Origin: a virus
Length of the DNA stretch: 44,560 nt
IMG/VR virus record: IMGVR_UViG_3300030685_000042
Location: 1-44,560 of that record
Strand: one strand, 5' to 3'
The position numbers were made by a program, and so were the translations under genes. Below are positions 18,863 to 42,762 of the stretch, in pieces. Each line of letters opens with the position of its first letter. Within the stretch, counting starts at the first letter, position 1. The notes beneath the pieces were generated by a model. The model was given only the letters and a program-made list of their open reading frames with translations, did no database searches and was not told where the DNA came from.

Positions 18863-18874
18863 GTTCTTTGTTTT

Positions 18875-19285
18875 TAAATGTAAATTATAAAGAGTAAAAC
18901 CTGTACATTCACATGCATTTTGTAGTACTCTTTATAAAAATGGCTAACCCTTTTTCAACTTAGTATGCCGTACTAAATATTGTAGACTTTCGTCTTAGTT
19001 ACCTATCCGGGACACACTCCCGGTTCACTAATCGCTATGAGGTATTTTATGGACGCTGTAAACAGTTGGTCACTTAGCTCTGTATCATTGCAAGCAAGCA
19101 TTTATTGAATATCACACATATTGAAATATGTGATTATTTATCTAATATCTGCATCGCTGCTCAACTATACAATTAGTAGCATTGTCAATGTTGTGCTTAA
19201 TAGGCTAGATAATAAAGTTTTAATTTCAAATACTGGATTTGAGTATTAATGTTCTTCATTATCTAATTCGTCTAGATTCATATGA
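18875..19285 (-). ncRNA. ORF-less stretch with strong hairpins, candidate structured RNA
   Basis: About 430 bases between the VWA gene and the coiled-coil gene hold no convincing ORF. Read on the minus strand, there is a long stem with arms ATCACATAT and ATATGTGTGAT (about 19113-19136) and a two-hairpin motif at 18983-19023 that recurs at 30.6 kb. There is also a paired element flanking 18890-18950 (arms around AAAGAGTA and TACTCTTT). The strand is inferred from the flanking genes and from GNRA-type loops that read correctly only on the minus strand. It could be an independent RNA or a long 5' leader of the downstream genes. Confidence 0.5.
18983..19023 (-). repeat. Copy 1 of a covarying two-hairpin RNA motif
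   Basis: On the minus strand: a CCGGGA/TCCCGG hairpin, a short linker containing GGTAACTAAG, then a hairpin GACGAAAGTC with a GAAA tetraloop. The copy at 30569-30610 keeps the linker and the tetraloop but changes both stems with compensating bases. Confidence 0.6.
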
Positions 19286-19294
19286 GTAATATTA

Positions 19295-20515
19295 TTACCC
19301 AATGGTCCAGCTGAATGGTGTTGATTTATTGTTTTCATTGTTATCTCCGTTCTGGAAGATTTGAAATATGTCGGACTTCTTTATTCCGTTCATAGTACTA
19401 TCATCCGTAAATAAAGCAAACTTAATATCTATGTTCTTTTCAGCACATAACTTGTATATCATTGCGGCATTTCGGTCTATTGAACCGTCACCATCAGAAA
19501 TAACAAGTAGATATTGTTTTGCTTTAGTCTTTTTTAATAATTGTAATTTTTGAATTGTGCTTGTTTCCATATCCGTTCCATTTCCTCTAGGGAAAGAATC
19601 AAGGACTTTCTCTTTCAAGTCTTTCTTTGATTTAATAGTCTGAGGTCCATAAGATCCTCCTGGATATAAATTTGTATCCCAGAATGTGTTTTCGAACGTA
19701 ATGTTCATTTTTTCACAATCTTCGTAAATTCTTTCAAGTAATAGATTTCTCCATTTATTGAAACTTGACATACTTGGTGAGAAGTCGATTATAGTATTCA
19801 TAAAGCGATCCGCGGGGACGCTCTGTTTGCAATAAAGTTCTCTGTTAACTATTTTTTTCATTAATAGTCCTCGAGGTTTCACAAATTCAATTGCCGATAC
19901 CTTTTGCAAGTCCGACATCTTTGAAATTGGTTGAAATTTCTTCTTTGTTGCGTCTGAAGTTTTAATCGACTCAAACCATTCTTCTAACTGCTTGTATGCT
20001 GATAATGCTTGCAATGGATTCTCTGGGCCTTCTGGTGGTTTATGGCCACTTCCGCCTTTCGGTTCTTTCTCTTCCATCTGTTTCTTCATTTCTTTTTCAG
20101 TTGGAGCTTCTATAGTAACATCTTTGTACTGATTGTACATTGAAGTTATAGTTTTGTCCAGTATACTTCCCTCTTCGTATTTGGCACCTTGGGCGATTAC
20201 GTCCATAGCTCTAGATACATCCTTAAGGGTTTCACTTGGTTCTCCATCTGGTCCTTTATGAAAAGACGTTTGAGTTTCATATCCTCCGACATTATTATAA
20301 ATACTCGGAAGAACAACTTTATCAAAATTTTGAAGCATAAAATTCGTAGAGGCCTTCTGCGGATTCTTAACTCCTGTTTCTTTTTCTTCGCGAGTCATTC
20401 GGTCTAGTTCCGATTTCATTGCTTTTTTAGTTGAAACTATTTTGAAACATTGTTCTTCTGTGAGATTATATTTTACGTCTGCTAAGCATTGATCATTGTT
20501 ATGACCTGCTATCAT
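19295..20515 (-). CDS. VWA-domain protein, partner of the adjacent MoxR-like ATPase
   Basis: 406 residues from ATG at 20515. The C-terminal half is a von Willebrand A domain with a complete MIDAS: DFSPSMS (Asp244, Ser246, Ser248), Thr314 in GNGTDM and Asp341 in VISDGDG. The N-terminal half is charged and helix-rich, with a low-complexity Lys/Glu/Gly/Pro linker near residues 140-168. The start overlaps the ATPase stop by one base (TAATG), implying coupled translation. A MoxR-type AAA+ ATPase next to a VWA protein is a well-known pairing (as in RavA-ViaA and MoxR systems) that remodels or activates target complexes, often metal-dependent. Inside a phage replication block its target is unknown. 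Identification of the domain is firm; the role is inferred. Confidence 0.85.
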   Translation of the reverse strand: MIAGHNNDQCLADVKYNLTEEQCFKIVSTKKAMKSELDRMTREEKETGVKNPQKASTNFMLQNFDKVVLPSIYNNVGGYETQTSFHKGPDGEPSETLKDVSRAMDVIAQGAKYEEGSILDKTITSMYNQYKDVTIEAPTEKEMKKQMEEKEPKGGSGHKPPEGPENPLQALSAYKQLEEWFESIKTSDATKKKFQPISKMSDLQKVSAIEFVKPRGLLMKKIVNRELYCKQSVPADRFMNTIIDFSPSMSSFNKWRNLLLERIYEDCEKMNITFENTFWDTNLYPGGSYGPQTIKSKKDLKEKVLDSFPRGNGTDMETSTIQKLQLLKKTKAKQYLLVISDGDGSIDRNAAMIYKLCAEKNIDIKFALFTDDSTMNGIKKSDIFQIFQNGDNNENNKSTPFSWTIG

Positions 20516-21735
20516 TATGCTGCTTTCTTTAGAAGTAATTGTACAAATTCTTCAATTTCCGAATCTACATTATTTGGAATTTTTGCTCCATTCACAAAAG
20601 CATTTCGCATGATTCCTAAACTGTGATTAATGTCCATGAACGAGTCATAATCTCTTATTTCCTCGGCTTTCACGGCACTCTTCGTAGTTACAATGGATTC
20701 AAATAATACTTTGTTGTGGTCGATATTCGACTTATTTTTCAAATAATTAATTACGGGTAACATAAAGTTGTTGGTAATCTTCTCATCGTAATTACGAGTC
20801 TTGATTATCTGCAAATCTTTAATGTATTTTGACATTTCCAATACTTTACGCGGAGTATAGTCTGCCATATCATTGATTGTCTCAACGATTGCTGCAAGTT
20901 TTGCTCCATCAAAATTTGGATAGCGATTCAACACAAGGCTGGCGGTATTCAATTTTGTCATTTTGTACTGTACTTTTAATGAAACTGGAAAACGTTGAGT
21001 CAAAGCTTCTGTAGAGTCATCTTGGATAACTTCTTCATAAGTTTTGTTTGTCAGACCAATGATAATTTTGGTTTTCATTGGAAAGCGTTGGTTTCCGTTT
21101 CGGATTTCTTTCGAAGTCAATGTGTCTTTCAATGCAGCCAAAACACGTGGATTGGCGTCAAATATTTCCTCGAAAATTACGATTTCTTTATTTGCAAAAG
21201 AGTTTTCGCAATTGTATTCGATTACGCCGGTTTCAGTCATTTGTTTAATGTTGATACCGCCGAACAGATCTTCTTCTGTTGTTGCTTCGGAAAGAGATTT
21301 AATAAATACTCGTTCCTTTAATTCCGGACAACTAAAAAGCATATCCATAAATTCAGATTTACCAAATCCACCTTTGCCATACAATATGAGATTCATATCA
21401 TTAGCAAGAGAGTTCTTGATTACTTCTGAAACGCCGGAAGTGTTAATAAACTTCTGACTTAATGTTTCATATACTTTGTTAGTTGTTTTGTACTCGTGTA
21501 ATCGAATATCACCGAATTGTTCGATAATCTGTTTTTTCAATTTTCGGAACTTACGTCCGTCCAATTTTTCTTCTCCCCAAGAACCATCAGTCAGCGATTT
21601 ACCGCTATCTTCAATAATGAATTCCATAGAGTTTTTGTCGATTAAAACAAGTTTGTTGGTTTTGATACCGAAGAAGTTATTAATTTCTTCCGGGGTAATC
21701 AAATATGTATTTTTGTTATCAGTTTTGATAATCAT
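20515..21735 (-). CDS. MoxR-like AAA+ ATPase
   Basis: 406 residues from ATG at 21735, which is preceded by TATATCAAATG. Walker A is GKGGFGKS (residues 120-127), Walker B is IVIFEE (185-190), a sensor-1 Asn falls in GLTN (residue 230), and an arginine-finger candidate is in TQRFP (Arg248). The glutamate-rich Walker B, followed by a DANPRVLAALKDTL insert, is typical of MoxR/dynein-like AAA+ proteins. The N-terminal 100 residues are not recognisable. It ends overlapping the VWA gene by one base. The likely job is ATP-driven remodelling of a protein complex with the VWA partner. Codon and base use here (more GC and CGG/CCG) differs a little from the neighbours to the left. A tRNA-like element lies just upstream at 21794-21855. 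Confidence 0.85.
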   Translation of the reverse strand: MIIKTDNKNTYLITPEEINNFFGIKTNKLVLIDKNSMEFIIEDSGKSLTDGSWGEEKLDGRKFRKLKKQIIEQFGDIRLHEYKTTNKVYETLSQKFINTSGVSEVIKNSLANDMNLILYGKGGFGKSEFMDMLFSCPELKERVFIKSLSEATTEEDLFGGINIKQMTETGVIEYNCENSFANKEIVIFEEIFDANPRVLAALKDTLTSKEIRNGNQRFPMKTKIIIGLTNKTYEEVIQDDSTEALTQRFPVSLKVQYKMTKLNTASLVLNRYPNFDGAKLAAIVETINDMADYTPRKVLEMSKYIKDLQIIKTRNYDEKITNNFMLPVINYLKNKSNIDHNKVLFESIVTTKSAVKAEEIRDYDSFMDINHSLGIMRNAFVNGAKIPNNVDSEIEEFVQLLLKKAA

Positions 21736-21793
21736 TTGATATAATTTGTAAATTTGTTAATAATAATACTTATTTTCTCTGCCCCTATCTAGT

Positions 21794-21855
21794 CGGGCAT
21801 ACAGGTCTCGCTCCTGTAACACTATTTCTAATGCTTAACTTCCGAGCTAATGCCC
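21794..21855 (-). ncRNA. Short tRNA-like fold without anticodon arm
   Basis: On the minus strand a six-base acceptor pair GGGCAT/ATGCCC encloses a D-arm-like GCT..AGC and a perfect five-base T-arm stem ACAGG/CCTGT with a seven-base loop AGCGAGA. Only about 15 bases remain where an anticodon arm (17 bases plus a variable loop) should be, forming at best a four-base stem. The element (62 bases) sits in the 126-base gap between primase and MoxR genes. It may be a degenerate tRNA, a tRNA-like processing signal or chance folding. Confidence 0.35.
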
Positions 21856-21861
21856 TTCTGT

Positions 21862-22833
21862 TTAATTAATCATTTCTTCAAGGACAGTTAATGCTTTCAC
21901 ATATCCTATTTTCTTGACTAAATCACTAATGTCCTTTGTTTTGTGTTTCTTATTTATAAAGATCGCATGGAAATTATATTCAGAGCATAACTGCCTTGCA
22001 AATTTCATTCCTGTTTTATCTCTATCATAAAAAACTAATATTCTTGTGAATCTTGATTTTAAATTGTCTATAACCGCTTTTGGTATGATAGTGCTTTCGC
22101 TCGAAGGAGCAACTGCATTATATCCCAATTCTTTTAGCACCATAATGTCTTTTAAAGACTTAGTAATAATTAATAAGTCTCCAGATTCGGGCAATTGCTC
22201 AAATCCAAATATGTCTAGTGCGCTAAGATTTCCTCTCCACTTGTTTAGCTTCGTTTCATACGGTTTGTAAATTTTAAACTTGTTAAATACTTTATAGCAA
22301 TACATTGGGTTATCGTTTTCATATTTGGATTTTACCAAATTGTCAACTAGGTATTTTTGTATAGGGTCTACCTTGTATAATTTCAATGTATCTGCTGTTA
22401 TACAGAACTGTTCCCAGAACTCCTTATCTACTTGCGTAAATGGCTTTCTGACTACAGCTATGTGTTTTTCCTTTGCTTGATAAGTTCTCTTCTTATCTGT
22501 CATATTATCCGATAAGGACTCTATTGACATATCGTCAAAGACTATCTTTAAGGTCTCACTGTATGTTGATAAGTTTTTGTATTTTTTTACAAAATTAAAA
22601 ACGTCTCCACAATCACCACTGGCCATATCTTTGTAAAGTAAGGCCCCGGTCTTGTTGCTAACAAATATTCCAAAAGACGGATTTTTATCGTCTCTTAGAG
22701 GACTGTTATATATATGACCAATCTTGAAATTACCGATATATTTAGCGAAAATGGCATATTCTGTCGTCTTCGATAAGATATCGGTTTTTTCGATTCTGTT
22801 TGTTTTTGGATTAAGTATGACGTTTGTGTTCAT
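21862..22833 (-). CDS. DnaG-type DNA primase with TOPRIM domain
   Basis: 323 residues from ATG at 22833; a TTG nine bases upstream is less likely. The N-terminal region has NSPLRDDKNPSFGIF and LYKDMASGDCGDVFNFV (residues 43-82). These match the core of the CHC2-type primase domain, though the usual zinc-binding Cys/His set is missing. The TOPRIM part includes LLIITKSLKD (220-229), which has Lys-Ser where many primases have Glu, and the metal-binding Asp pair in VFYDRDKTG (Asp270, Asp272). It would make RNA primers for replication with the DnaB-like helicase encoded upstream at 24.9-25.9 kb. The SSB-like gene ends 12 bases before this start, so they share a message. Loss of the zinc ligands and the altered TOPRIM residue are the odd points. 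Confidence 0.85.
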   Translation of the reverse strand: MNTNVILNPKTNRIEKTDILSKTTEYAIFAKYIGNFKIGHIYNSPLRDDKNPSFGIFVSNKTGALLYKDMASGDCGDVFNFVKKYKNLSTYSETLKIVFDDMSIESLSDNMTDKKRTYQAKEKHIAVVRKPFTQVDKEFWEQFCITADTLKLYKVDPIQKYLVDNLVKSKYENDNPMYCYKVFNKFKIYKPYETKLNKWRGNLSALDIFGFEQLPESGDLLIITKSLKDIMVLKELGYNAVAPSSESTIIPKAVIDNLKSRFTRILVFYDRDKTGMKFARQLCSEYNFHAIFINKKHKTKDISDLVKKIGYVKALTVLEEMIN

Positions 22834-22845
22834 ACTATTCAATTA

Positions 22846-23448
22846 TTAGAACGGCAAATCGTTATTGGCGACTGTCGGTGTTGCTGTAAATACTTCTGCT
22901 GAAGATTTTTCTGCATTTTCTTTATCACCTAATACAGGTCTTTCGAATAAATCAATTGCCAACTTCGCGATTTTACTCTTTTCTGTTGGTATTTCCATTG
23001 ATTCAATAAACGTATATACAGAGTATTTAGGTAATGAGGTATAACCATTCTGTCCATAGACAATTTTTAATCTAACTAATTTGGTTTTGTCAACCGCATT
23101 CATTAAATCAGTTACCCATTTAAAGAAGGCTTCAAATGAATCGTATGAGAAATTACTCAACTGATCCTTTGTATACCATACACTCATTATCTGCAATATT
23201 CTTGCGGCTTGTTTATTTGCTTTTTCAGCAAACTCAGCATCGGTCTGGTCGTTGAATTTTGTAGGGATATATTCGGTCTGTGTTAAAGCAGCGCCATCCT
23301 TTACAAATTTGAACTCAATGAATAGATTACCGTTTGTTGATTTTTCATTTCTTACTCCAGCGAATTCTACATTCTCATGTATACCAGCGCCCAGAAATGA
23401 AACGTCTTTCGATTTTAAATCAAAAGCGTTATTTGTATTAAATATCAT
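22846..23448 (-). CDS. Putative single-stranded DNA-binding protein
   Basis: 200 residues from ATG at 23448. The body has alternating beta-like segments but no family I can name with certainty. The telling feature is the C-terminus: a Ser/Thr/Ala-rich linker ending in NNDLPF, closely matching the acidic DDDLPF-type tail through which bacterial SSBs recruit partners. The length (200) is a little long for a classical OB-fold SSB. The position directly between the Sak4-like ATPase (13-base gap) and primase (12-base gap) supports a replication/recombination role: coating single-stranded DNA and docking other replisome proteins. What else it could be: a phage recombination mediator with an SSB-like tail. 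Confidence 0.7.
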   Translation of the reverse strand: MIFNTNNAFDLKSKDVSFLGAGIHENVEFAGVRNEKSTNGNLFIEFKFVKDGAALTQTEYIPTKFNDQTDAEFAEKANKQAARILQIMSVWYTKDQLSNFSYDSFEAFFKWVTDLMNAVDKTKLVRLKIVYGQNGYTSLPKYSVYTFIESMEIPTEKSKIAKLAIDLFERPVLGDKENAEKSSAEVFTATPTVANNDLPF

Positions 23449-23461
23449 AATTTATATCTTT

Positions 23462-24211
23462 TTAATCGTTACTTGGCAAAAACACTTTATCCCAATAGGT
23501 AGTTATCTCATTTTCCGTGTTGGAATCTGCGATTACTATTTTCTGTCCTCTTAAGTGTGGCGCTCTTGCTTCTCTAACTGAATTTACTCCTCCTTCAAAC
23601 GAAATTAAAGTCTCGTTTGTTTTTCTGTATACATATCCGACTGCGTCTGCTTCTCCGCAAACTATGTCTCCAAGTTTTCCCACTAAATCTATTTGCATTT
23701 CTGACAATTCTTGTCCGTCTTTCGTTATTAGCGTATCTTTCGTATGCCCAATCAAAATAAAATGATCGGTCAAATTTCTGAATTCGTCTATTATCGTCTT
23801 AACGGCTTCTCTTAAGTAAAGATAACCTGCACCTTTTTCTAATGTTCTCACATCAGTTCCAGTCCAGTTCTTCGCTATAGGATTTTGTTTGTATAAACTA
23901 GCGGCATATGGCAAGCACATGTCTTCTAATCTGGTAGCATTGTCTATTGCTATATATTTATATGGTTTAGTTCCTGTTTCCACAATTTTTGCTTTGATTG
24001 CCTTCACAATTTCGCCCAAATCTGCGACGCTTCTAGCCTGAACGGCCATTGCTTCTAGAAATTCCGATCCTCCCTCTAAATCTACGATTAAGCAGTTATC
24101 TAGGGTTGACAATAATGTTGTTTTTCCAGTTTTTGGCTTTCCAAACAAAATTAAGAATCGCGGGTTTAATACTTTAGGTATACTTTTTATTGTAGGTAAT
24201 TGTATGCTCAT
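23462..24211 (-). CDS. Sak4-like RecA-family ATPase (AAA_24 type)
   Basis: 249 residues from ATG at 24211. Walker A is GKPKTGKTT (residues 24-32), followed by LIVDLEGGSEFL with acidic residues 44-46. A Walker B-like YIAIDNATRLED and an FILIGHTKD sensor-like strand follow. Size and motif order match the phage Sak4/AAA_24 family of single-strand-annealing or recombination ATPases that work with SSB. The SSB-like gene is next downstream, which fits known Sak4-SSB pairs. A perfect nine-base-stem hairpin abuts the start codon (24212-24233), which could control translation. I am fairly sure of the fold; recombination is the family-based inference. Confidence 0.8.
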   Translation of the reverse strand: MSIQLPTIKSIPKVLNPRFLILFGKPKTGKTTLLSTLDNCLIVDLEGGSEFLEAMAVQARSVADLGEIVKAIKAKIVETGTKPYKYIAIDNATRLEDMCLPYAASLYKQNPIAKNWTGTDVRTLEKGAGYLYLREAVKTIIDEFRNLTDHFILIGHTKDTLITKDGQELSEMQIDLVGKLGDIVCGEADAVGYVYRKTNETLISFEGGVNSVREARAPHLRGQKIVIADSNTENEITTYWDKVFLPSND

Positions 24212-24233
24212 GTGTTATTTGTTTAAATAACAC
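24212..24233 (-). promoter_or_regulatory. Hairpin directly abutting the start codon of the Sak4-like gene
   Basis: On the minus strand the arms GTGTTATTT and AAATAACAC form a perfect nine-base stem with loop AAAC, and the next base is the A of ATG. Such placement covers the ribosome footprint and resembles a translational operator. No T-tract follows, so it is not a terminator. An AAATTTTATCAGA element lies about 15 bases further upstream (24248-24260). Confidence 0.55.
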
Positions 24234-24306
24234 GAAGATATATTTTTTCTGATAAAATTTGAAATTATTTGATATTGTCTGAAACCTTCATGTCATAATA
24301 TTACTA

Positions 24307-24888
24307 TTAGAACGCTGATTTAATCGTAACTACGATAGTTTTAATTGTTTCCAATTGATAACTAGTGTATCTACTGAACGTTTCAGGTTTTGCATAGCGT
24401 GGAATAATCGTGTATCCAACTTTAATGAAATTATCGTAAATTTCAACTAAATTACCGGCTACATACACATAGTTTGCTGGCATGTTGCTTTTGAAACAAC
24501 TGCAGCCACTTGAGTATGTTCTGATATATGGATTGTATGATTGTTTTGGCTTGCGAGCTTCAGCGAATGCTTCCAGCTTGTCCATTACTGTGTTCCACTC
24601 ATTTTTGAGATCGTGCACAGGAACGTTACCTTGCAGGAAGTTATTGTTTTTAACCCAATTGACGTCGAATGATTTTGAGGTGCCAAACGTAATAGTGTGG
24701 CCCGGTTTTGCATAGTTGATTCCTTTAATCTCTACACCACCTGTGGTATAAAACGGAGCATCCAATCCAGCAACTGTTAATTGTGGATATTTTTCGATCA
24801 ATTTATTGACCAATGCTTGTTTGTAAATAAGATAAGGATCTACGTTTGCTTTCGGAATTGTTACCGCAAAAGATTTATTATATGTCAT
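24307..24888 (-). CDS. Hypothetical protein within replication operon
   Basis: 193 residues from ATG at 24888, five bases after the helicase stop. I do not recognise it. Visible features are a mixed alpha/beta composition, LIYKQALVNKLIEKYPQL near the N-terminus, a KPGHTITFGT segment, and a central CSCF pair of cysteines (GCSCFKSN). The C-terminus is hydrophobic and ends KTIVVTIKSAF. There are no nucleotide-binding motifs and no signal peptide. Base use is slightly more GC-rich than the helicase. Its place between helicase and Sak4-like genes suggests a replication or recombination accessory function, but the sequence itself gives no mechanism. Confidence 0.7.
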   Translation of the reverse strand: MTYNKSFAVTIPKANVDPYLIYKQALVNKLIEKYPQLTVAGLDAPFYTTGGVEIKGINYAKPGHTITFGTSKSFDVNWVKNNNFLQGNVPVHDLKNEWNTVMDKLEAFAEARKPKQSYNPYIRTYSSGCSCFKSNMPANYVYVAGNLVEIYDNFIKVGYTIIPRYAKPETFSRYTSYQLETIKTIVVTIKSAF

Positions 24889-24893
24889 GGTTT

Positions 24894-25883
24894 TTATTTT
24901 TTAAATTCGAGTTGTTGTTGTGATTGTTGGGCTTTTTCCGAATCCTCATCCGGTTCTTTCAAATTGTTAAATTTAAGGTCATTGATAAATTTCAATATTC
25001 TTAAATCTCCCTCTCTGTTTTTGAGAAAATGTAGATATACGCAATCCTTGACGGGGAGATTGTAAATGCCATACGACATCAAACCGAGTAGTTCAGGCCT
25101 GTGTATTACAATTACGTAGTCGCTACCTTGGAAAACTGCATCACTAGACGATAAATCGCTTCGTTGAGGATAATGCATTCCCGAGTTGTTCAGCCTTTCG
25201 GGCCGTTCTATTTCTCTATTCATTTGAGAAATTTGTATTATAGAAGTCTTGCCAACTTTCTTTACTTCTATTAATGATTTTTCTAAATCCACTATTATCG
25301 CTCTTTCCGATTCTCCAGAAGACCCACGTATTAATAGTGTATGGTCTATTGTTACTACTAGCCATTTGTTTTTAGCTATAGTTGATTGGAAAAATTTGAT
25401 TGTGTTTTCTATTTCCTGCACACTACCCGCAGAGTCCACATAATATATTGGATACTGGGTTATTTGCTGTGCTACCTTTTCAACGCCTGTGAAGTCTTCT
25501 TCGGTTATTAGGCCTTTGTCTGAGGCGGAATATAATTCTGACGTTGTTTTCTTTAATTTATATGATATCTTTCTACCAACTTGGCGAGAGCTTAACATTT
25601 CAAAGGAAAATGATAGCATTACTACATCTTCTAGTGGATTTAAATCTATTAAATCAGTTTCAAGGGTATTTACAAAGGAAGATTTACCGGAGCCTGATAT
25701 GCCCGCTACTGCGTAGATTGCATTTGGCTCGATTCCTCCCATTGCTAGTCGATTAAATTTAGACCATCTCGTTCTTAGTGATCTGACCTTATTCTCTCTT
25801 CTATCCTTTATGTACTTTACAATTTCATTGGTTGCAGAAGAGATATGTCTATAGTTCAGAACTTTAGTCGATTTCTGTTCCAT
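24894..25883 (-). CDS. DnaB-type replicative helicase
   Basis: 329 residues from ATG at 25883. The RecA-like motor has Walker A GISGSGKSS (residues 61-69), the SFEM motif (93-96, the DnaB H1a context), Walker B-like WLVVTIDHTLLI, the QISQMNRE strand typical of DnaB motif H3, and a final PQRSDLSSSDAVFQGSDYVIVIHR segment (DnaB H4: the LSSSDAVFQ glycine/serine-rich loop). The usual N-terminal primase-interaction domain is reduced to about 35 residues, so it is shorter than cellular DnaB (about 450-470). It would unwind DNA 5' to 3' as a hexamer at the phage fork. The start overlaps the upstream putative loader gene by 20 bases. Confidence 0.88.
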   Translation of the reverse strand: MEQKSTKVLNYRHISSATNEIVKYIKDRRENKVRSLRTRWSKFNRLAMGGIEPNAIYAVAGISGSGKSSFVNTLETDLIDLNPLEDVVMLSFSFEMLSSRQVGRKISYKLKKTTSELYSASDKGLITEEDFTGVEKVAQQITQYPIYYVDSAGSVQEIENTIKFFQSTIAKNKWLVVTIDHTLLIRGSSGESERAIIVDLEKSLIEVKKVGKTSIIQISQMNREIERPERLNNSGMHYPQRSDLSSSDAVFQGSDYVIVIHRPELLGLMSYGIYNLPVKDCVYLHFLKNREGDLRILKFINDLKFNNLKEPDEDSEKAQQSQQQLEFKK

Positions 25884-26430
25884 ATATTTTCTCTGCTGTA
25901 TGTTGGACTTTTTTGTCCTTTAGAAACTCGTCATATAATAGCCACTCTTCTGCAAGTAGCCATTTAGACATTCGTTTCATATATCCCATCGACCCACTTG
26001 ATTTTCGAGTTGTTAATTCGAATTTCAAACAGTCTAAAATGTGTTCGTGTTTTGTTTTACTTTTCCCCACGATCTTTTCGTAGGCTTTTCTGCATCTACT
26101 TACATCTCCTCTCAGATAGTCTTTCATTCCATCTGGTCTGCTTGTCGATATTGGATATGATTCGTAGAACTCGTCAAAGAAGTTCCTGGTTTTGAACTTA
26201 TTCTCGAATTCCTCGGTTATCTTTAGACTCGATATGTCCATTTCGTTGTATACCGATTCTTTTGTTAGTATATTTTTGTCTATTAGATTTAAAATGTCTG
26301 AATCAACTATATTTATTGTGTTTTGGTATGCACTAAAATTGATTTTTTCTACTATAAATTTAATAAGCATAAACTGATTTGTCGTTATTTTGAGGCGTTT
26401 GGCCTCGTCCAAATCTAGTTCTATCAGCAT
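25864..26430 (-). CDS. Putative helicase loader / replication initiation protein
   Basis: 188 residues from ATG at 26430. The C-terminal half has the pattern FFDEFYESYPISTSRPDG, then a helical stretch KAYEKIVG, then FELTTRKSSGSMGYMKRMSKWLLAEEWLLYDEFL. I recognise this as the shape of phage replisome-organiser proteins, in which a Trp-rich basic terminal helix pair contacts DNA or helicase. The N-terminal part (residues 1-80) is helical with DILNLIDKNIL. It overlaps the DnaB-like gene by 20 bases, the usual neighbourhood of a loader. A gene-specific leader contains ATTTTATCAGA at about 35 bases upstream. Assignment rests on context plus a weak family memory. Confidence 0.6.
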   Translation of the reverse strand: MLIELDLDEAKRLKITTNQFMLIKFIVEKINFSAYQNTINIVDSDILNLIDKNILTKESVYNEMDISSLKITEEFENKFKTRNFFDEFYESYPISTSRPDGMKDYLRGDVSRCRKAYEKIVGKSKTKHEHILDCLKFELTTRKSSGSMGYMKRMSKWLLAEEWLLYDEFLKDKKVQHTAEKIYGTEID

Positions 26431-26488
26431 TTTCTTTTTACTTTAAAGTTTAAATTGATTGCTCTGATAAAATCTGATATGATTTGTA

Positions 26489-26947
26489 TTATGCTGCCAT
26501 TAGAAGCTCTTCTTCTGGCGGTGATTTGCTTAATAAAACATTATCAAATGCTTTCTGCATATCTGGTGAGATCCTACCTCCATAGTTATACATAAATGTG
26601 ATAATGTTGTTTATATGCTCTGGTGTTAACGTAGCAACTAGTCTCGTTTTAGGAGTTTCTAATAATACTTCGTTTTCGTCATACATTGACGTCCAGTATA
26701 AACATTCTTCCGGTGGTAGGCCTTGATCAATTAAGATAGTAGCTTCTTCGGTAACCCATTTTTCAAGCGAGTCTTCGATTAGTCCTAAGTTAATTAATAA
26801 TTGGCCAATTCGCTGATCTGGATTTTCCTTCCAGGACTTGCGAATAAACTCCGTATCAATTTCTAATACTGGAATTTTCCATTTTTTCTGTAATTCAGAC
26901 CAATTTACTTTTGCAAGAAAATCGTCTATTCTTTCTTTTGGTCTCAT
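26489..26947 (-). CDS. Hypothetical protein, helix-rich
   Basis: 152 residues from ATG at 26947. Unrecognised family. The sequence is helical and rich in Trp and acidic residues; the most distinctive block is SWKENPDQRIGQLLINLGLIEDSLEKWVTEE, quoted in part as NPDQRIGQLLINLG. There is no nucleotide-binding site, signal peptide or cysteine motif. The C-terminus (SPPEEELLMAA) is acidic. It lies 58 bases upstream of the loader gene, so it may be co-transcribed with the replication set. A strong nine-base-stem hairpin (26968-27027) sits in its leader. Confidence 0.65.
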   Translation of the reverse strand: MRPKERIDDFLAKVNWSELQKKWKIPVLEIDTEFIRKSWKENPDQRIGQLLINLGLIEDSLEKWVTEEATILIDQGLPPEECLYWTSMYDENEVLLETPKTRLVATLTPEHINNIITFMYNYGGRISPDMQKAFDNVLLSKSPPEEELLMAA

Positions 26948-26967
26948 AATTGTTAATTTTAATGAGG

Positions 26968-27027
26968 ACTAGCGGTAGTCTTGGTAATTTTTGTCGGACC
27001 CATAGGCTGACCGTCTTTACCGCTAGT
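26968..27027 (-). promoter_or_regulatory. Nine-base-pair closed element in an intergenic leader
   Basis: Minus-strand arms ACTAGCGGT and ACCGCTAGT pair perfectly and enclose 42 bases. The 3' arm is followed by CCTCATTAAAATT, a poor U-tract, so this is more likely a leader structure of the gene starting at 26947 or a processing site than an ordinary terminator. I see no convincing internal fold or known riboswitch core. Confidence 0.45.
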
Positions 27028-27108
27028 TTTTTGTTAAAGCGAGGGGATTGAACCACTCCTACTAATCTTTCTGTCACTGATTAATATTCTCCATTACTTC
27101 CTTTTTGT

Positions 27109-27537
27109 TTAATTTCCAAATTCAACTGAATTGTTGAAGTTTTCAAGTTGTTTTTCAATTGCCAGAATCATTACATCGATTTCCTGTACTTCGTTTGTCA
27201 CAAATACTGGAGATAAAATAACATTTTTACCTTTGGTTGGCATCATGTTAAGTTTGATTTTTTGTTCTTTTAATTGTTGCAGTGCGTAGATTGAAGGATA
27301 AATGCATGTTGCAGGTACTTGACTCATTTCGGTGAATCCCATATTTGCGGCCTGTATTTCTACTTTTACGTCTACTAACTTTTTTGAATCACTAATGATT
27401 GCTTTGTACAATCCTTGGATATCGTAATTACGCGGCCCTGAGTCTGCTACGTTTTCAATGCGAATGCGATCCCAATTCTTTTTGATATTGGCAATTAATA
27501 ATTCGCGTTCTGTAATAAGTGTTTTTGCTGTTTTCAT
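27109..27537 (-). CDS. Hypothetical protein
   Basis: 142 residues from ATG at 27537. Not recognised. The N-terminus is basic and helical (ELLIANIKKNWDRIRIEN), the centre contains SGPRNYDIQGLYKAII, and the C-terminal third is helical again with acidic residues (EIDVMILAIEKQLENF). No membrane segment or catalytic motif is visible. The leader has an AATCAATT element about 13-20 bases before the ATG, shared with several other genes here. A terminator for the preceding gene lies about 100 bases upstream of this start, so this gene is probably expressed from its own promoter. Confidence 0.65.
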   Translation of the reverse strand: MKTAKTLITERELLIANIKKNWDRIRIENVADSGPRNYDIQGLYKAIISDSKKLVDVKVEIQAANMGFTEMSQVPATCIYPSIYALQQLKEQKIKLNMMPTKGKNVILSPVFVTNEVQEIDVMILAIEKQLENFNNSVEFGN

Positions 27538-27639
27538 TGTTATAAAATTGATTTTTAATTGTTTGACTTTATGATAACTATTCAGCCTGGTACTTCTACC
27601 CCGTCAGTTCAATATCGGAATCACTTCCCTTATTGTATC

Positions 27640-27673
27640 AAAAGAGGGCTTGCGTTTGACTTCAAGCCCTCTC
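27640..27673 (-). terminator. Intrinsic terminator downstream of the 27793-28317 gene
   Basis: On the minus strand AGAGGGCTTG pairs with CAAGCCCTCT across a loop of about 13 bases and is followed by TTTTGAT. Ten GC-rich pairs plus a U-run make this a strong rho-independent terminator. Confidence 0.85.
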
Positions 27674-27721
27674 TGTATGTGTATTTAAATTTAAGAAACA
27701 AATCGGCATCCTTATGTAATT

Positions 27722-27765
27722 CGGAGTTACCCTACATAAAGAATATTCGTTTTCCGGAGTTACCC
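27722..27765 (-). repeat. Direct repeat of an 11-base element in a 3' untranslated region
   Basis: GGGTAACTCCG (minus strand) occurs at 27722-27732 and again at 27755-27765, 33 bases apart, between the stop at 27793 and the terminator at 27640-27673. I see no coding sequence here. Confidence 0.6.
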
Positions 27766-27792
27766 AACTTATATTTGTTTAATGTGTTCTTA

Positions 27793-28317
27793 TCATCCTT
27801 CGACCACTCCAACAACTGTGTTGCGGTTATTCAAGAATGAAGCAAGTAAATCGGTGTTTAAATTTCCACCTCCCATAAATATTTGCATATTTTTTGGCAT
27901 TGCTCTCTGCTCGATTACACGAATGTTCTCAACAACTTCTCTGTTACGAGATTTTGTATTTTGAAAGTTCGGTTGTGATTCTGTAAGGTGAGCCATATAC
28001 AAGCTAGTTACAACTTGTTTGCGGTCATTAGTAGATACCAATGCGCCTATGGCTTCGCCACAAAGCCACTGAACGTAAGGTATTTCTCCTTTAGTTTTAT
28101 GTGCGAGTAGTTTTGCAATAATAATATGCGAACATGATAGGAAGTCTATTTGATTCCCCGAACGTACAAACCAATCAATGAATGGTCCATACTTATTGAA
28201 TACAACTGTTCCGTCGTTTTTGATTTTGAATGCAGAACTATTTTCTAAGTAGATCTGAATCAATTCAGCAAAACGGTTTTTGTCGAATTCGTCAAAGATT
28301 AATTCTTCCGTATTCAT
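27793..28317 (-). CDS. Hypothetical protein with strong Shine-Dalgarno
   Basis: 174 residues from ATG at 28317, stop TGA. Not recognised. The N-terminus is acidic and helical (EELIFDEFDKNRFAELIQIYLE), the middle is hydrophobic (HIIIAKLLAHK), and the C-terminus ends with a Gly-rich GGGNLNTDLLASFLNNR stretch. No clear catalytic or membrane motif. Unlike most genes here it has a near-perfect AAAGGAGG seven bases before the ATG, as does the gene upstream (28341-28814, gap 23 bases), so the pair forms a separate unit. It ends at the terminator pair near 27.65 kb. Confidence 0.72.
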   Translation of the reverse strand: MNTEELIFDEFDKNRFAELIQIYLENSSAFKIKNDGTVVFNKYGPFIDWFVRSGNQIDFLSCSHIIIAKLLAHKTKGEIPYVQWLCGEAIGALVSTNDRKQVVTSLYMAHLTESQPNFQNTKSRNREVVENIRVIEQRAMPKNMQIFMGGGNLNTDLLASFLNNRNTVVGVVEG

Positions 28318-28340
28318 GGCGGCCTCCTTTCTGACTGAGA

Positions 28341-28814
28341 TTACTCTCCGTCAAAAGCTTCCACCGACCGGTCGTTTGCTGCGACGATATCCAAAATGGC
28401 ATCTTTCTGCGCGGTCAAATCAGCGATAATCGCGTCAATGCGGGCAACTTCACTCAAGTTTAGTGCTTTTGTGATTTCGGTTGGAGTTGCAGCATTTCCG
28501 AAGAAAGTACGCTTCTTTTCCAAGTCGTAGCCAGTTGGTAACTCTTCAGCCTTCATAACCAGTTTTTCTGCCAAGCCGACTGATAATTCTGCCTGACCAC
28601 CGTTAATCACCACAACATCAATATTGCCGGACATTTGTTTATGCGCTACAGTATTAACTTTAATGTGTTTGATCGTGAAGCTATTCACCGGGATTTTAAT
28701 CCGGACTGCTTCGTCTTTTTTTGAGTCTTCCCGGTCTACAGGAACGACTTCGATTACGTGAAGGTGACCGCCAAGGGTGCTTCCGTAAAGTTTTAATGCT
28801 TCTTTAATTTTCAT
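28341..28814 (-). CDS. Hypothetical protein with strong Shine-Dalgarno
   Basis: 157 residues from ATG at 28814, preceded by AAGGAGG at the standard distance. Not recognised. The N-terminal 90 residues look beta-rich with alternating hydrophobic and charged residues (VVPVDREDSKKDEAVRIKIP), and the C-terminal third is helical (ARIDAIIADLTAQKDAILDIV). There is no motif I can name. Codons are more GC-rich than in the flanking replication genes. It is the first gene downstream of the 2.1-kb ORF-less region, from which its leader extends, with two ATCAAAAA elements just upstream of the ribosome-binding site. Confidence 0.72.
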   Translation of the reverse strand: MKIKEALKLYGSTLGGHLHVIEVVPVDREDSKKDEAVRIKIPVNSFTIKHIKVNTVAHKQMSGNIDVVVINGGQAELSVGLAEKLVMKAEELPTGYDLEKKRTFFGNAATPTEITKALNLSEVARIDAIIADLTAQKDAILDIVAANDRSVEAFDGE

Positions 28815-28829
28815 TTTTTCCTCCTTATT

Positions 28830-30905
28830 TTTGATAATAAATTTAATTTTTTGATAAACACTGGAATTTTTCCTACTTGGTTGGAATGTCCTGCCTAAGC
28901 ATACTTAACTCGATCCAACTATACATTTTAAAGAATTCTTCGGATAAGATTTGAAATAATTAATCCTACGTTTTCACACGCTACTCCGGTTTCCAATCTT
29001 GTACTAGGGAGTTGTTAGGATTTTCTGAAAGAAAAACGACTAATTTACGATTAATCTATGGGTTTTGCGCCCACTGCAGTTATTAGTTCGAAATGGTGCC
29101 CGTGAAGGCTATTTAGAGGCGTTTTAAGACACTTTTAGGTACTCTCTGGCAGATTGTTCCCGCAGTTACGCAAGGTCTCTTAAATCGACTTAAAATATGG
29201 TTTGTGGTCATGTTGGGATTTGATCCCCTTCATGATATCCGGGTTTGAAATATTCAGCTTCTTGAACTATTTCTAAAATTTAATTGGAGTTATCCGCCCA
29301 ATGAATGGTATATGCTGCATATTGGCATGTGCATCAAATTAAATTTTATGTAACTAATCTGTGTTTGGTAGACTATATATTTTCTTGTAGTGAAGAAAAT
29401 AGTAAAGAACATATGATTTTTTTGTTGCGATCCTCGTATTAGTTCCTATTAATTCATGTCAACGTAATGAGGTTGATTGTCTAAAAATGGTGTTCTAAAG
29501 ATCCGTATTGTGACAGTCCTCGAAAACTGTGCAACTCTGTTATAGTCTGAAATTGTTTGAAAGCGCATTTTCTCCTATCTAGTGACTACATATTATGTTC
29601 TCATAAGCAGGGGACCAACTTTTTCAAATTGGTAGAAAGCTCCAATTCTACCCAGTCGGCTTTGTGTACCCGGTTGGAATGGGCCTGTTCTGAGCCTTTT
29701 ATCGTAGACTAAATCTACAACCAGTAACGCTATGTACTGGGTTTCTAGCCGTCAGAGGGGGAGTTACTAATCCTGTTTAGTTGTACAGGAATTCACCACC
29801 TTAATTTATATGGTTTTTGAGTGTTTGACCAATCCACTTTAATTTACAGTTATCTTCTGTCGTATTTAGCACTTAATTTGCCGCTACAGCGTTCTGCGTG
29901 ACTGGCAGGCACTGACTTTCATGACCGTTGTTTGCCATGAATATACGAATTTGATCTTAATGTGGCGATATCGATCTAATGATATGAATTGCCCCACATC
30001 CGGGTGTAACGATATAATTCGGCCAATCGTCCTAAAAGCAATTTAATTTTTGCATAGATATTTCCGTATCTCGCCGGGTTCTTGGCAGCTACTACCTTTT
30101 GTAACGATCCCTGCACTCTGCCAACCGAGTAAATCGAAGTGTTTTCTTTTGTGACCGATTTCACACATAACGGTCTGCATTGTTGCTGCTTTCACGAGTC
30201 AAATTGGCTCGGAGAGTCGCTAACTCTCAATGGATATCGCTGCTAATTAACTATCGGACTTTCACCCCATACATTACTAGCTGGTTTATATATTACATTG
30301 ATAGTTAATTTTTTGTAACTTAGTGCTGCTTTTATTGCTGCGACAATAAATATTGCGGTTACTGAATTTACATACTTTGATCTTTCTCCATTTTTATCTG
30401 TTACGTATCTGTAATGTTATTCTGTAAATTCTACCCATATTCCCTTAGGGCGTGGTCGACTGTTGTCAGAGGCAATCTCTCGACGGTTCTTTTTCTAGGC
30501 TACCGCTTTCCATAGGCACGCTAATGCGTTTGTTCCCCCCTCTATCTTTCAAGGGATCCGCGTGTTTTTAGGCTTTCGCCTTAGTTATCCATTTGGGTTC
30601 CAAAGCCCAAGCCGTCAACTCTACTTCTCTATATCGAACAGAAGCTTAAACCCTACGGAGCGTTTCTTTTAGGCGCTCACCCATAATCACTATTTCGCGT
30701 TTCTCCATTTAAGGATCGAGGTGTTAGTGAACGTCTTCCCTCCAATTATTTAGTTCATCGTGTCTAATAGGCAGGTTTATCTTAGTCCGTTGTCGTTCTA
30801 CTGCACACAACACCCTGTTGCACGCCTCAATCTTACGTATTCAGTCCTAACTTAGACTTTAATTGTTAATATTTTATTTAATAATCTCTGAAAATGCATG
30901 CTATC
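28830..30905 (-). ncRNA. 2.1-kb ORF-less, hairpin-rich region, candidate large structured RNA(s)
   Basis: No ORF of more than about 62 codons is present in either strand that looks real. Base composition is higher in GC than the neighbouring genes. Read on the minus strand there are many local helices: CCTGT/ACAGG at 29772-29789, CCAGTA/TACTGG at 29721-29740, GTAGA/TCTAC at 29704-29718, GAGAGT/ACTCTC at 30212-30228. A two-hairpin motif at 30569-30610 is shared with 19.0 kb. Purine-rich single-stranded joints and GAAA loops are frequent. It may hold several RNAs. I could not match it to a known class such as GOLLD, ROOL, group I or group II introns. Confidence 0.55.
30569..30610 (-). repeat. 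Copy 2 of a covarying two-hairpin RNA motif
   Basis: Minus strand: TTGGG/CCCAA hairpin, linker containing GGATAACTAAG, then GGCGAAAGCC with a GAAA loop. Compared with 18983-19023 the linker and tetraloop are kept while stem pairs differ by compensating changes (GGC/GCC versus GAC/GTC; TTGGG/CCCAA versus CCGGGA/TCCCGG). Confidence 0.6.
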
Positions 30906-30912
30906 GGTTTAT

Positions 30913-34901: not shown

Positions 34902-34922
34902 TTGATATGAATTTAAAATTTG

Positions 34923-34997
34923 TGATCCCTGGGAGATTCGAACTCTCGACCCACACCTTAGAAGGGTGTTGCTCTAATCCAACTGAGCTAAGGAACC
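34923..34997 (-). tRNA. tRNA-Arg (anticodon UCU)
   Basis: All four arms are standard on the minus strand: acceptor GGTTCCT pairing with AGGGATC (two G-U pairs), D arm GCTC..GAGC with GG in the loop, anticodon stem ACACC/GGTGT with loop CTTCTAA (anticodon TCT, reading AGA), and T arm with TTCGAAT. The discriminator is A; CCA is not encoded. AGA is a frequent arginine codon in the AT-rich phage genes. Confidence 0.95.
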
Positions 34998-37385: not shown

Positions 37386-37389
37386 AAAT

Positions 37390-37858
37390 TAAATTGATTT
37401 TAATTGTTAATAATTGCTCCCTACGCAGTTCTCGAGGCTGCCGACCGACCAAGCTGTTCGTCGGATATAGGGCGTGTTTTAAAACCCTACCAGGGCTAAT
37501 TGAATAGACAGGCGGCTTTGATATGATCTCTGCTCCTGACCTGGTAGGTACGTTCTAAATTATGCAGACATTAAGCCCACATAATTGTTGATTTGGATTG
37601 TTTTTGTGCCAGTTATCTAGCGTGTGCAGTCCTATCCATATTCAGCGGACGCCAATCAATACTTTGCACCCCCGTGTTTTATTAGCGCTCTCATGGTGGG
37701 GCTCAAACCCACAACTTCCAGGTACCTAATTTGCATTAGGCTCTTTAAATTACTTAGCCTGGTCCGCTATTCAGTTGCGGCACATGAGAGTTTTGGTGGA
37801 GGTGGGGCTTTCGAGGTCCCGTCTTGCTCGTCATAAATACAGCCTAACAGACCGTACT
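37390..37858 (-). ncRNA. ORF-less structured stretch including a tRNA-like element
   Basis: About 470 bases with no real ORF, between the 37002-37385 gene and the 37861-38334 gene. It contains the tRNA-like element at 37687-37790 and GC-rich segments. There is also an ACCTACCAGG / CCTGGTAGGG pairing at about 37486-37550 which can form a stem enclosing some 45 bases (minus strand CTACCAGG with CCTGGTAG). No known family recognised. Confidence 0.45.
37687..37790 (-). ncRNA. tRNA-like element with expanded anticodon arm
   Basis: Minus strand: acceptor CTCTCAT/ATGAGAG (seven pairs), D-arm-like CCGC/GCGG, outer anticodon stem CCAGG/CCTGG, five-base variable loop AAGTT, and T arm GTGGG/CCCAC with loop TTTGAGC. 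Between the anticodon stem arms lie 35 bases instead of seven. They contain a hairpin CCTAA/TTAGG with loop TGCAAA, which would expose a GCA triplet. The D loop lacks GG. Could be a tRNA with a small insert or a tRNA mimic. Confidence 0.5.
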
Positions 37859-37860
37859 TC

Positions 37861-38334
37861 TTAATGTTTTAATGCCGGGTAAAATTGATTCACATCGTAG
37901 ATTGTAAATGTAAACATTTCTAATCCATTCCATACCTGAATTAAATAGCCATCTGAAGATATGCTAACTAACTCAACGTATTTTTCTCTTTGTAAATCCT
38001 GATTCCAGGCATTTGTTTTGTGTGTCATCGCTTCATAAATCTCTTTGTATACCTTTGGTTTTTTGACCAATTTGATTTCAACTTTTCTTATTATCGCTTC
38101 GCGTACATCATTATTTAACGATCTTAAGACTGTTATTAATGTTTTTGTATCGCAATGACGTAAAGATACGTTGGTTTTGTTTCTTAGATATTCATTCCAC
38201 TTTTTCCCAATCTTTTTGTGCAGTCTTTCGGCGTCTGTCTTTGGGAATGCTGCCATAAATGCAGTCAGTACTTCTTCTTGTGTTCTAGCATGAGCGATCA
38301 GCGCATCTAAAATCTCGTTTTCTTCGTGTTTCAC
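37861..38334 (-). CDS. Hypothetical protein
   Basis: 157 residues from GTG at 38334 (preceded by TATAAA); an ATG at 38385 would add 17 hydrophobic residues but would start inside the terminator hairpin, so I prefer GTG. Helical, acidic N-terminus (HEENEILDALIAHARTQEEVL), a basic central part (RLHKKIGKKWNEYLRNK) and a beta-like end (IQVWNGLEMFTFTIYD). Unrecognised. No signal. It follows a terminator and precedes an ORF-less region, so it may be monocistronic. Confidence 0.65.
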   Translation of the reverse strand: MKHEENEILDALIAHARTQEEVLTAFMAAFPKTDAERLHKKIGKKWNEYLRNKTNVSLRHCDTKTLITVLRSLNNDVREAIIRKVEIKLVKKPKVYKEIYEAMTHKTNAWNQDLQREKYVELVSISSDGYLIQVWNGLEMFTFTIYDVNQFYPALKH

Positions 38335-38976: not shown

Positions 38977-39180
38977 TTACTTTAATTTCATTTTGTTATA
39001 CACTTTTTGAATATTAATGCTAATAATAAAGCTTAATGTAATTGTGGCAATAAGAATAACTGCTCTATTCTCTTGACTTGGAACCGTCTTACTAATATCA
39101 TTTGACATTAGTAATAACACGGGTAAATTAGATATGCATGCACACCCAATTAAAAATAATAAATTAAATGCTTTTTTCAT
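38977..39180 (-). CDS. Small membrane protein
   Basis: 67 residues from ATG at 39180, leader AATCAATAATTT. Two hydrophobic segments: LLFLIGCACISNLPVLLLM near the N-terminus and VILIATITLSFIISI further on, joined by a short polar loop, so a two-pass membrane protein. Not recognised. Small membrane proteins in phages often act in superinfection exclusion or lysis, but nothing here shows which. A tRNA-like element lies 30 bases upstream. Confidence 0.65.
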   Translation of the reverse strand: MKKAFNLLFLIGCACISNLPVLLLMSNDISKTVPSQENRAVILIATITLSFIISINIQKVYNKMKLK

Positions 39181-39210
39181 AAATTATTGATTAATAAATG
39201 TTAATATTGT

Positions 39211-39307
39211 TGTCTATACAGGGCTCGAACCCGCGACTTCATGATATGCCTTCCGTTAAAACGGGTTTGTCACTTTCATGCGCTCTAACCAACTGAGCTA
39301 ATAGACT
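39211..39307 (-). ncRNA. tRNA-like element with expanded anticodon arm
   Basis: Minus strand: acceptor AGTCTAT with ATAGAC (six pairs), D arm GCTC..GAGC with a normal GG-containing loop, outer anticodon stem CATGA/TCATG, five-base variable loop AAGTC, T arm GCGGG/CCTGT with loop TTCGAGC. The anticodon stem encloses 31 bases instead of seven, with an inner CCG/CGG hairpin whose loop TTTTAA could present TTT. D and T arms are far closer to a real tRNA than chance would give. A U33 is not obvious. Confidence 0.6.
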
Positions 39308-39309
39308 TC

Positions 39310-39690
39310 CCATGGATTACCATGATTTTGGGTTTGCACATAATTGAAAGCTTAAGAGCACTTTCTTTCAATTATATACCAATCAAAACTTAGCCGACCT
39401 AGTCCTTGTATACTTAGACTAAATCACTGCACTCTCCCAACAACTGAAACTGTGCAGTAAGTGATACTTCGCCCCCTCTTGCAAAAAGGTTGAGTATAAT
39501 CATATCCCATCAGGCTTAGTAGACCTTCAAAAGATACTGATCTTCGACTTTACTGTGTCGTTTTAAAATTTATAAGACTAATTATTAATTATAAGTCATT
39601 CATGGGCTGTCAGCATTACCTGTCCCCATTGCCCATCCCTTAGCATTTTAGCATTGAGACTCTCCCCCGCCCAGCGGTTTGCACGGTATA
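39310..39690 (-). ncRNA. ORF-less structured stretch upstream of the tRNA-like element
   Basis: About 380 bases with no ORF. Minus strand: an 11-pair hairpin ATAATTGAAAG/CTTTCAATTAT at 39340-39375; CTGCAC/GTGCAG helix at about 39428-39460; an outer ATGGGC/GCCCAT stem near 39601-39637. Together with the tRNA-like element this may form a single RNA. No known class recognised. Confidence 0.45.
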
Positions 39691-39696
39691 AACTAA

Positions 39697-41031
39697 TTAA
39701 TAATTTTGCCTTACTGGCAAGTTTTGATTATCCTGTTTTCTAACGATTTCACCTAGCATATGGATATATGCCTCGTTAGGTTTTTTGTTTTTGTATTTTG
39801 CACATTCTGTAAGGTGGATTACCAAAAGAATCTGCGGCATCATTGTTTCGTACACTAATGTCGGATATAACATCCTCCATTCAAGTGTTTTAAATGAACA
39901 TTGAATGTTTACTCGTGGAATAATTTCTTCGGCTAATTTATTATAACTTCTTAAGTGAGTGCTCATTCTTAATATTGTTATTATGTCATCTTTTGCCTCT
40001 TGGCTCATAGATTTCATATCTTTAGCCATCCGTTCTTTCATTGCTGTAAGTACGTAAGAAAAATCCTTTTTGTTATTTCTCAAATCCATATCTCTACAAT
40101 CAACATGAACGTGAAGTCCAGAGTTATTATCAATTGCACATCCATTTCTTACCATATAAATTAGTAATTCATTTAATGCTCTAATACCTCTTAGTCCTTT
40201 TATTCTTAATCTGTTTTCTCGCAAAGTGCCTGATTTATAATCGTTTCCGTCTTGACTTCCTCCATCCCATCCAGAATTAAATTCAACAGCCTCTAACTGT
40301 GCTAATTTTTTCCCTATAGGTTGACAGTTACATCCATTGTATTCTATTTCAATGCCAATGTTAACAGAATCGTATTCTATTTGTTTCCTTTCCAGTATCG
40401 ATACTTTTTTTGGTGCTGGTCCTAATATTGTCATTAATGTGTTAAAACAATATACTCTAGCTGCCAGCATGTCGCTAACTGATCTGTTTGTACTTTCTTT
40501 TCTTATTGCTAAGAATCGCATCCTTTCTGCTCCTGAACCTCTTATATCGCTTGCTAGCATTTTTATTCTAGTAATGATATTTCTTTGCCCTGAGCTATTT
40601 GGGTCGTATATTCTTTTTGCATCTCTTCCATTTTCTCCAATTGCTATAATTGAGAACATATCTCCACATCCATCAAACATATTATCTTCTGCTCTTGATT
40701 CGATTTCGCACATTTGTTCATATATTTGATCTGCGTTAAAATACATATCTCGACATCCTAATAGTATTTCATCTTGGTTGTCGTTTGTCGTACAGTCAAT
40801 TGTATTAATTGCATTCGCTAATTCTCTAAAGACATATTGTAAAGTATGTTCCTTCTTTCCTGAGATAGACTTTATCCTTATATTATTTGCCTTTTTGTAT
40901 TTATAAGGCCATAATTTACAAACAAATTGATCTAACATCTTTCTGTTTATTTGTTTTGCCTTAAATACTTTAAATGCTTCTGGGCTTTCTATTAAAGCTT
41001 CTAAGCATGAGCGTTGCCATTTTGTTGCCAT
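39697..41031 (-). CDS. Amidoligase-like enzyme (putative COOH-NH2 ligase)
   Basis: 444 residues from ATG at 41031. The C-terminal half has the amidoligase signature: GIEIE (226-230), then GWDGGSQDGNDYKSG, and NNSGLHVHVD (about 302-311), with FKTLEWRMLYPTL near 380. Amidoligases of this ATP-grasp/glutamine-synthetase-like family join carboxyl and amine groups, often to modify peptides or proteins. The N-terminal 220 residues are helical and unassigned. In a phage this might tag a host or phage protein, or act in envelope peptide metabolism. The family is recognised from motif order with moderate certainty; the substrate is unknown. Confidence 0.7.
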   Translation of the reverse strand: MATKWQRSCLEALIESPEAFKVFKAKQINRKMLDQFVCKLWPYKYKKANNIRIKSISGKKEHTLQYVFRELANAINTIDCTTNDNQDEILLGCRDMYFNADQIYEQMCEIESRAEDNMFDGCGDMFSIIAIGENGRDAKRIYDPNSSGQRNIITRIKMLASDIRGSGAERMRFLAIRKESTNRSVSDMLAARVYCFNTLMTILGPAPKKVSILERKQIEYDSVNIGIEIEYNGCNCQPIGKKLAQLEAVEFNSGWDGGSQDGNDYKSGTLRENRLRIKGLRGIRALNELLIYMVRNGCAIDNNSGLHVHVDCRDMDLRNNKKDFSYVLTAMKERMAKDMKSMSQEAKDDIITILRMSTHLRSYNKLAEEIIPRVNIQCSFKTLEWRMLYPTLVYETMMPQILLVIHLTECAKYKNKKPNEAYIHMLGEIVRKQDNQNLPVRQNY

Positions 41032-41370: not shown

Positions 41371-41438
41371 AATTTTTGATAAATTAATTGTGTTTAATAA
41401 AAATGGTTTAAAAAATTGTATTTAAAAAGAAAATTCAG

Positions 41439-41523
41439 TGCCAGTTATGAGATTCGAACTCGTTAGACAGATTGCTCTGTTTTCCGTGGTCATTATAGGG
41501 CTCTCATCCTATATGATACTGGC
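41439..41523 (-). ncRNA. tRNA-like element with two non-standard hairpins
   Basis: Minus strand: acceptor GCCAGT/ACTGGC, T arm with GAG TTCGAAT CTC, discriminator A. In place of the D and anticodon arms there is an eight-pair hairpin CATATAGG/CCTAT(A)ATG with one bulge and a hairpin ACAGA/TCTGT with a GCAA tetraloop. The element is 85 bases long. No anticodon arm can be drawn. Confidence 0.5.
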
Positions 41524-41582
41524 GGATTGTAAAAATGCATATAACATTTGAATGGCGTCCCCATAGGGATATTACTCGCTCG

Positions 41583-41768: not shown

Positions 41769-41794
41769 AATAAATTGATTTTTAAGTTTTTAAA

Positions 41795-42755: not shown

Positions 42756-42762
42756 GAGAATA

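Follow-up and report, generated by a model that had tools for sequence, protein, structure and literature searches.

Are two look-alike pairs of hairpins in one phage genome copies of a single RNA motif, or do they belong to separate RNAs? The window, the whole 44,560-nt stretch of DNA analysed here (IMG/VR record IMGVR_UViG_3300030685_000042), derives from a crAss-like phage whose DnaB-type helicase is 66% identical to its counterpart in cr118_1 (Suoliviridae). A preliminary description had reported a covarying two-hairpin motif present twice, in two regions free of open reading frames (ORFs). The letters, coordinates and pairings given for both spots are correct, and both are read on the minus strand, which also encodes the neighbouring genes. 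Copy 1 (18983..19023) runs from 19023 to 18985 as CCGGGA-GTGTG-TCCCGG, ATA, GGTAACTAA and GAC-GAAA-GTC; copy 2 (30569..30610) runs from 30610 to 30571 as TTGGG-CTTTGGAA-CCCAA, ATG, GATAACTAA and GGC-GAAA-GCC. Both are letter-identical in IMG/VR contigs 3300028767_000022 and 3300030047_000102, which represent the same virus, and a further relative used for comparison, L016, has a helicase 88% identical to the window's. Based on orthologous regions in such relatives, we consider it likely that the two spots belong to two phage RNAs that are distinct and unrelated, and that their likeness is coincidental.

What is the region in which copy 2 is embedded? It spans ~2.1 kb on the minus strand (28815..30912), holds no ORF of at least 80 aa and is a candidate for a giant structured RNA. 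A gap of 1.3-2.5 kb occupies the same position in all 12 of the annotated Suoliviridae genomes that were checked, as it does in many IMG/VR relatives; the gene order around it is the same in those 12 genomes and in environmental relatives, and its orientation relative to the flanking genes is constant. The gap measures about 1.85-2.5 kb and is unannotated in cr118_1, cr53_1, cr4_1 (60882-63028), cr55_1, cr114_1, cr52_1, cr60_1, cr56_1, cr113_1, cr109_1, cr50_1 and cr125_1, except that an opposite-strand 'hypothetical protein', probably spurious, is annotated within it in cr113_1 and cr109_1 (L112 2038-2475, L113 2040-2477). Among environmental contigs it is found in L016, L037, L039, L040, L043, L047, L050, L051, L054, L058, L088 and others. 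Similarity of the region between subfamilies is confined to short islands, and the region is absent from crAss001 (Steigviridae) and p-crAssphage (Intestiviridae).

Besides its synteny, the region lacks coding capacity and carries conserved pairing. In eight Loutivirinae sequences, no forward frame is open for more than 82 codons in the standard code, and only 210 of 1,411 pairwise indels come in multiples of three. An alternative genetic code was rejected as the cause of the missing ORFs because the longest frames are still short with TAG or TGA readthrough and because the indels are not in threes. The Loutivirinae consensus fold contains 363 pairs, of which 118 have changed on both sides, and 95.8% of the cells are paired. 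Pairs predicted on both strands number 216, and 84 of these have Watson-Crick to Watson-Crick changes. Among four relatives of the window, each 200-nt stretch of the giant region has on average 6.9 compensatory pairs, compared with 3.6 for genes nearby on the same contigs (Mann-Whitney p 0.001). Mean structure-conservation z-scores in four relatives of the window's clade are -4.2 versus -2.3 in neighbouring genes; these scores are biased, coding controls being negative too (mean -2.3) and Loutivirinae genes upstream of the giant region reaching about -5, so that the comparison with coding sequence outweighs the absolute values. Consensus folding of the whole region failed for 11 sequences of the window's clade, which share 52% identity. 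Given this evidence, copy 2 probably sits in a non-coding RNA candidate of ~2 kb that is base-paired and has a constant position in Suoliviridae genomes.

It is conceivable, if improbable, that the region is instead the 5' leader of the downstream gene of 157 aa, that is, a giant cis-regulatory leader. At its end stands a good ribosome-binding site for that gene, a search there for terminator-like sites gave none, and conserved bases continue to the end, the conserved 3' end coming to within ~45 nt of the ribosome-binding site, which would allow for a very long leader. Yet the region stays in place even where the flanking gene diverges to less than 30% identity, and known bacterial regulatory leaders are far shorter than 2 kb.

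Less probable still, the region would act in cis as DNA and not be an RNA gene, for instance as an origin of replication or a packaging site rich in inverted repeats. Selected DNA hairpins would give compensatory pairs too, and a count of 42 G-U versus 30 A-C cells favours neither strand as the RNA. The summed consensus folding energy is, however, somewhat better on the sense strand, and long-range helices with unpaired conserved blocks and an orientation that is always fixed relative to the flanking genes are more in keeping with an RNA.

Within the ~2-kb RNA candidate, copy 2 is part of a variable neighbourhood. A block just upstream of it, GATCCTTAAATGGAGAAA ... GCTTCT/AGAAGT, is retained in several relatives, and the hairpin in this block (30623..30645, minus strand) covaries, with GCTTCTC/GAGAAGT, GCTTCTT/AAGAAGT, GCTTCGC/GCGAAGT and GCTTTC/GAAAGT in relatives. 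Hairpin 1 of copy 2 (30593..30610, minus strand) has the loop CTTTGGAA in the window and CYYYNGAA in relatives, an octaloop that recurs on compensating stems (TTGGG/CCCAA in the window, GTACAG/CTGTAT in L016, GG/CC in L058, CC/GG in L037); the linker is not retained. The linker GRTAACTAAG is altered here in L016, L037, L040, L043, L050, L051 and L054, with CCCAGGC or AATTAAGGC in its place; the site reads, for example, GACCTCTTGAAAATGTCGGCCCAGGCGAAAGCC in L054 and GACTTTGGAATCTAGAGAACAATTAAGGCGAAAGCC in L043. Hairpin 2 (GGC-GAAA-GCC, 30571..30580, minus strand) is the same in relatives or becomes an extended hairpin on the GGC/GCC base. A competing single hairpin, GGCUU..GCUUUGG paired with CUAAGGC..AAGCC (30571..30613, minus strand), is predicted to be more stable than the two-hairpin fold: for copy 2 plus 8 upstream bases, a stretch of 50 nt, the single long hairpin has -17.0 kcal/mol versus -11.5 kcal/mol for two hairpins, and the L043 orthologue folds into the same single hairpin. 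Copy 2 would represent a fast-evolving peripheral hairpin region of the candidate RNA. The giant region of L037 (5566-5606) and of L051 (2720-2762) has a second site, absent from that of the window, in which a hairpin is followed by ATAACGAAC.GAAA and GGCGAAAGCC.

Copy 1 lies between two minus-strand genes in an intergenic region (18863..19294, minus strand) with orthologous regions in L016, L050, L033 and L057. Judging from these orthologues, it probably lies within an intergenic RNA that is conserved, measures ~330 nt and is located upstream of an exonuclease gene; this candidate is separate from the giant region. Hairpin 1 (19007..19023, minus strand; CCGGGA/TCCCGG with a conserved GGAGTRTGTCC) is unchanged letter for letter in L016, doubly compensated in L050 (CTAGGA-GTATG-TCCTAG) and TCGG/CCGA in L033 and L057. 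Hairpin 2 (GAC-GAAA-GTC, 18985..18994, minus strand) is not kept: in L016, GGTAACTAA-GACGAAAGTC is replaced by GGTTTCTAA-TGCATATTTATATGCA, and L050 lacks both the linker and a counterpart of hairpin 2. Overlapping the supposed linker, ATAGG (19002..19006, minus strand) is assigned to pair with CCTAT (19200..19204, minus strand). This long-range closing helix covaries, appearing in single-sequence folds as CCCAT/ATGGG (L050), GCCTAT/ATAGGC (L033) and ACTCAT/GTGAGT (L057); in the window it is assigned by homology and is absent from the minimum-energy fold of the window's own sequence.

We propose that the CCTAT/ATAGG helix closes a multi-arm domain of which hairpin 1 would be the last arm, followed by an H-type pseudoknot. 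The pseudoknot candidate, TTAGTA[CGGCA]TACTAA...AGGGTTAGCC (18942..18976, minus strand), has a stem and a loop-tail pairing that change with compensation in five phages, the others being L016, L050, L043 and L045. In all five (L016 16848, L050 16745, L043 16302, L045 10937 and the window) it is situated upstream of the exonuclease gene or in its vicinity and has a conserved AAGGGT(T)AGC; a hairpin often follows. The arrangement resembles that of preQ1-I, an H-type pseudoknot riboswitch, in that a short stem stands at the end of the RNA and its loop pairs with a tail that follows an A-rich strand; unlike preQ1-I, the copy 1 RNA has other conserved bases and matches no Rfam family. It would most likely act in cis on the surrounding operon.

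Do the two spots nevertheless share an origin? Orthologues place different hairpins at the two sites, the conserved hairpin-1 loops being GGAGTRTGTCC at copy 1 and CYYYNGAA at copy 2, and the two-hairpin fold is preferred at copy 1 but not at copy 2 once 8 nt are added. The hairpins that had been set against each other as covarying thus prove, on this sequence comparison, to be non-homologous. Conserved RNA structure in both ORF-less regions is supported by the orthologues, and in this respect the preliminary description holds; the comparison of one copy with the other, which it had offered as evidence of covariation, does not. Aligned locally over their full extent, the copy 1 and copy 2 regions scored no higher than shuffled sequence, and neither region had a blastn match among annotated phages.

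A covariance model built from the two copies, the check proposed at the outset for an RNA family, was applied to 70 loci, 1.2 Mb in total, and to the contigs of near relatives. It recovered each spot's orthologues, that of copy 1 in L016 via hairpin 1 (E 0.003) and that of copy 2 in L043/L055 mainly via GGCGAAAGCC (E 0.026), and otherwise weak matches, including those in the giant RNA candidates of L037 and L051, which are mostly due to the stock hairpin GGCGAAAGCC; it yielded no third member, and within this search both spots occur together in no phage but the window's own virus. An exact-pattern scan of IMG/VR returned only contigs that represent the same virus and are almost identical, together with matches elsewhere without hairpin 1, most of them apparently coding, and the one new contig found in a scan with GATCCTTRAATGGAGAAA was rejected as a chance coding match.

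The linker alone is at chance level, with 8 matches at up to one mismatch in the window versus 6.9 expected. With an architecture defined from the observation itself (a hairpin of at least 5 Watson-Crick pairs, a 9-nt linker and a 3-bp GNRA hairpin), a pair with the observed linker identity of 8/9 arises in 9 of 1,200 dinucleotide-shuffled versions of the window, and an earlier run of 100 shuffles gave no pair as good; since the definition is post hoc, this rarity is suggestive at most. The likeness is probably a coincidence of common building blocks, namely a hairpin of 3 bp with a GNRA cap that follows an A-rich strand. Both spots recall the GAAA tetraloop and its 11-nt receptor in having a GAAA-capped hairpin. 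The receptor pattern CCTAAG/TATGG does not occur in the linker GRTAACTAAG, however, and the linker is not retained, reading differently at copy 1 in L016 and L050.

The least probable of the alternatives is that both spots are true copies of one small motif, a protein-binding site or tertiary-contact module used in two RNAs: an identical 8-nt core (TAACTAAG) within the same architecture, a likeness matched in ~0.8% of shuffles under a post hoc definition and hence somewhat rarer than chance, so that a binding site common to both and peculiar to this virus is conceivable, and the second giant-RNA site of L037 and L051 all speak for it, but the linker and both hairpins are not jointly kept in either orthologue set, no third strong match was found with the covariance model, a strand of a long-range helix overlaps the linker at copy 1, and in its context copy 2 favours a different fold. 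More generally, look-alike hairpins within one genome may be a coincidence despite stems that appear to compensate.

Other RNA features were noted in the window and in related phages. Rfam identifies a 98-nt tRNA at 39210-39307 (minus strand) that ARAGORN missed, and further ORF-poor stretches of 0.4-0.7 kb lie at 37389-37863, 39015-39699, 41422-41826 and 42327-42765. Rfam matches in crAss-like phages include the Hatchet ribozyme, RAGATH-9, RAGATH-22, a permuted tmRNA and group I introns (L031 (cr114_1) 385-513, 1743-1910 and 2199-2517; L028 354-589; L030 249-449 and 1105-1349; L029 798-1087). In crAss001 (MH675552), a gene-free gap of 0.9 kb (95965-96869; L105 42966-43870) lies just downstream of the early gene for the TROVE-domain (Ro60-like) protein Gp96 and may encode a Y-RNA-like partner; nothing was found to link it to the giant region. 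A TROVE/Ro60 protein beside the giant RNA was considered and dismissed, as Pfam gave no match and a profile comparison with crAss001 Gp96 gave none either.

What, then, might the giant region be? The finding of value is this RNA candidate and not the two-hairpin motif. A group I or II intron was rejected, as the region has no Rfam intron match and the flanking genes are complete and separate; it matches no other Rfam family either, and none of the large RNAs of Rfam (GOLLD, ROOL and others) was matched in the window or in relatives L025 and L028-L031. In a literature search for non-coding or structured RNAs of crAss-like phages or Crassvirales, the region went unmentioned in the open-licence PubMed Central articles covered, a scope that makes this weak evidence of absence. 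GOLLD and ROOL are large, ornate phage RNAs (PMC12286853). Like them, the region is long, ORF-less and phage-encoded, with extensive conserved pairing, and lies in a part of the genome with tRNA genes (tRNA-Arg, 34922-34997). Unlike them, it measures ~2 kb as opposed to roughly 600-800 nt, has no Rfam match to either (E up to 10) and belongs to crAss-like phages of the Suoliviridae type. We infer that it is transcribed and serves as a scaffold; by analogy, the product would most likely be a free-standing folded RNA made during infection, a scaffold or cage similar to GOLLD and ROOL.

There is perhaps an even chance that a structured non-coding RNA of ~2 kb is made by all Suoliviridae and the crAss-like phages related to them, that it forms a new family and that it is essential in infection, with copy 2 as a variable surface hairpin. 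Across a whole family of phages abundant in the gut, an RNA-like region of 2 kb keeps its position and is unannotated in the records checked. If the proposal is true, this RNA would be among the longest known in bacteria or their phages, ribosomal RNA aside.
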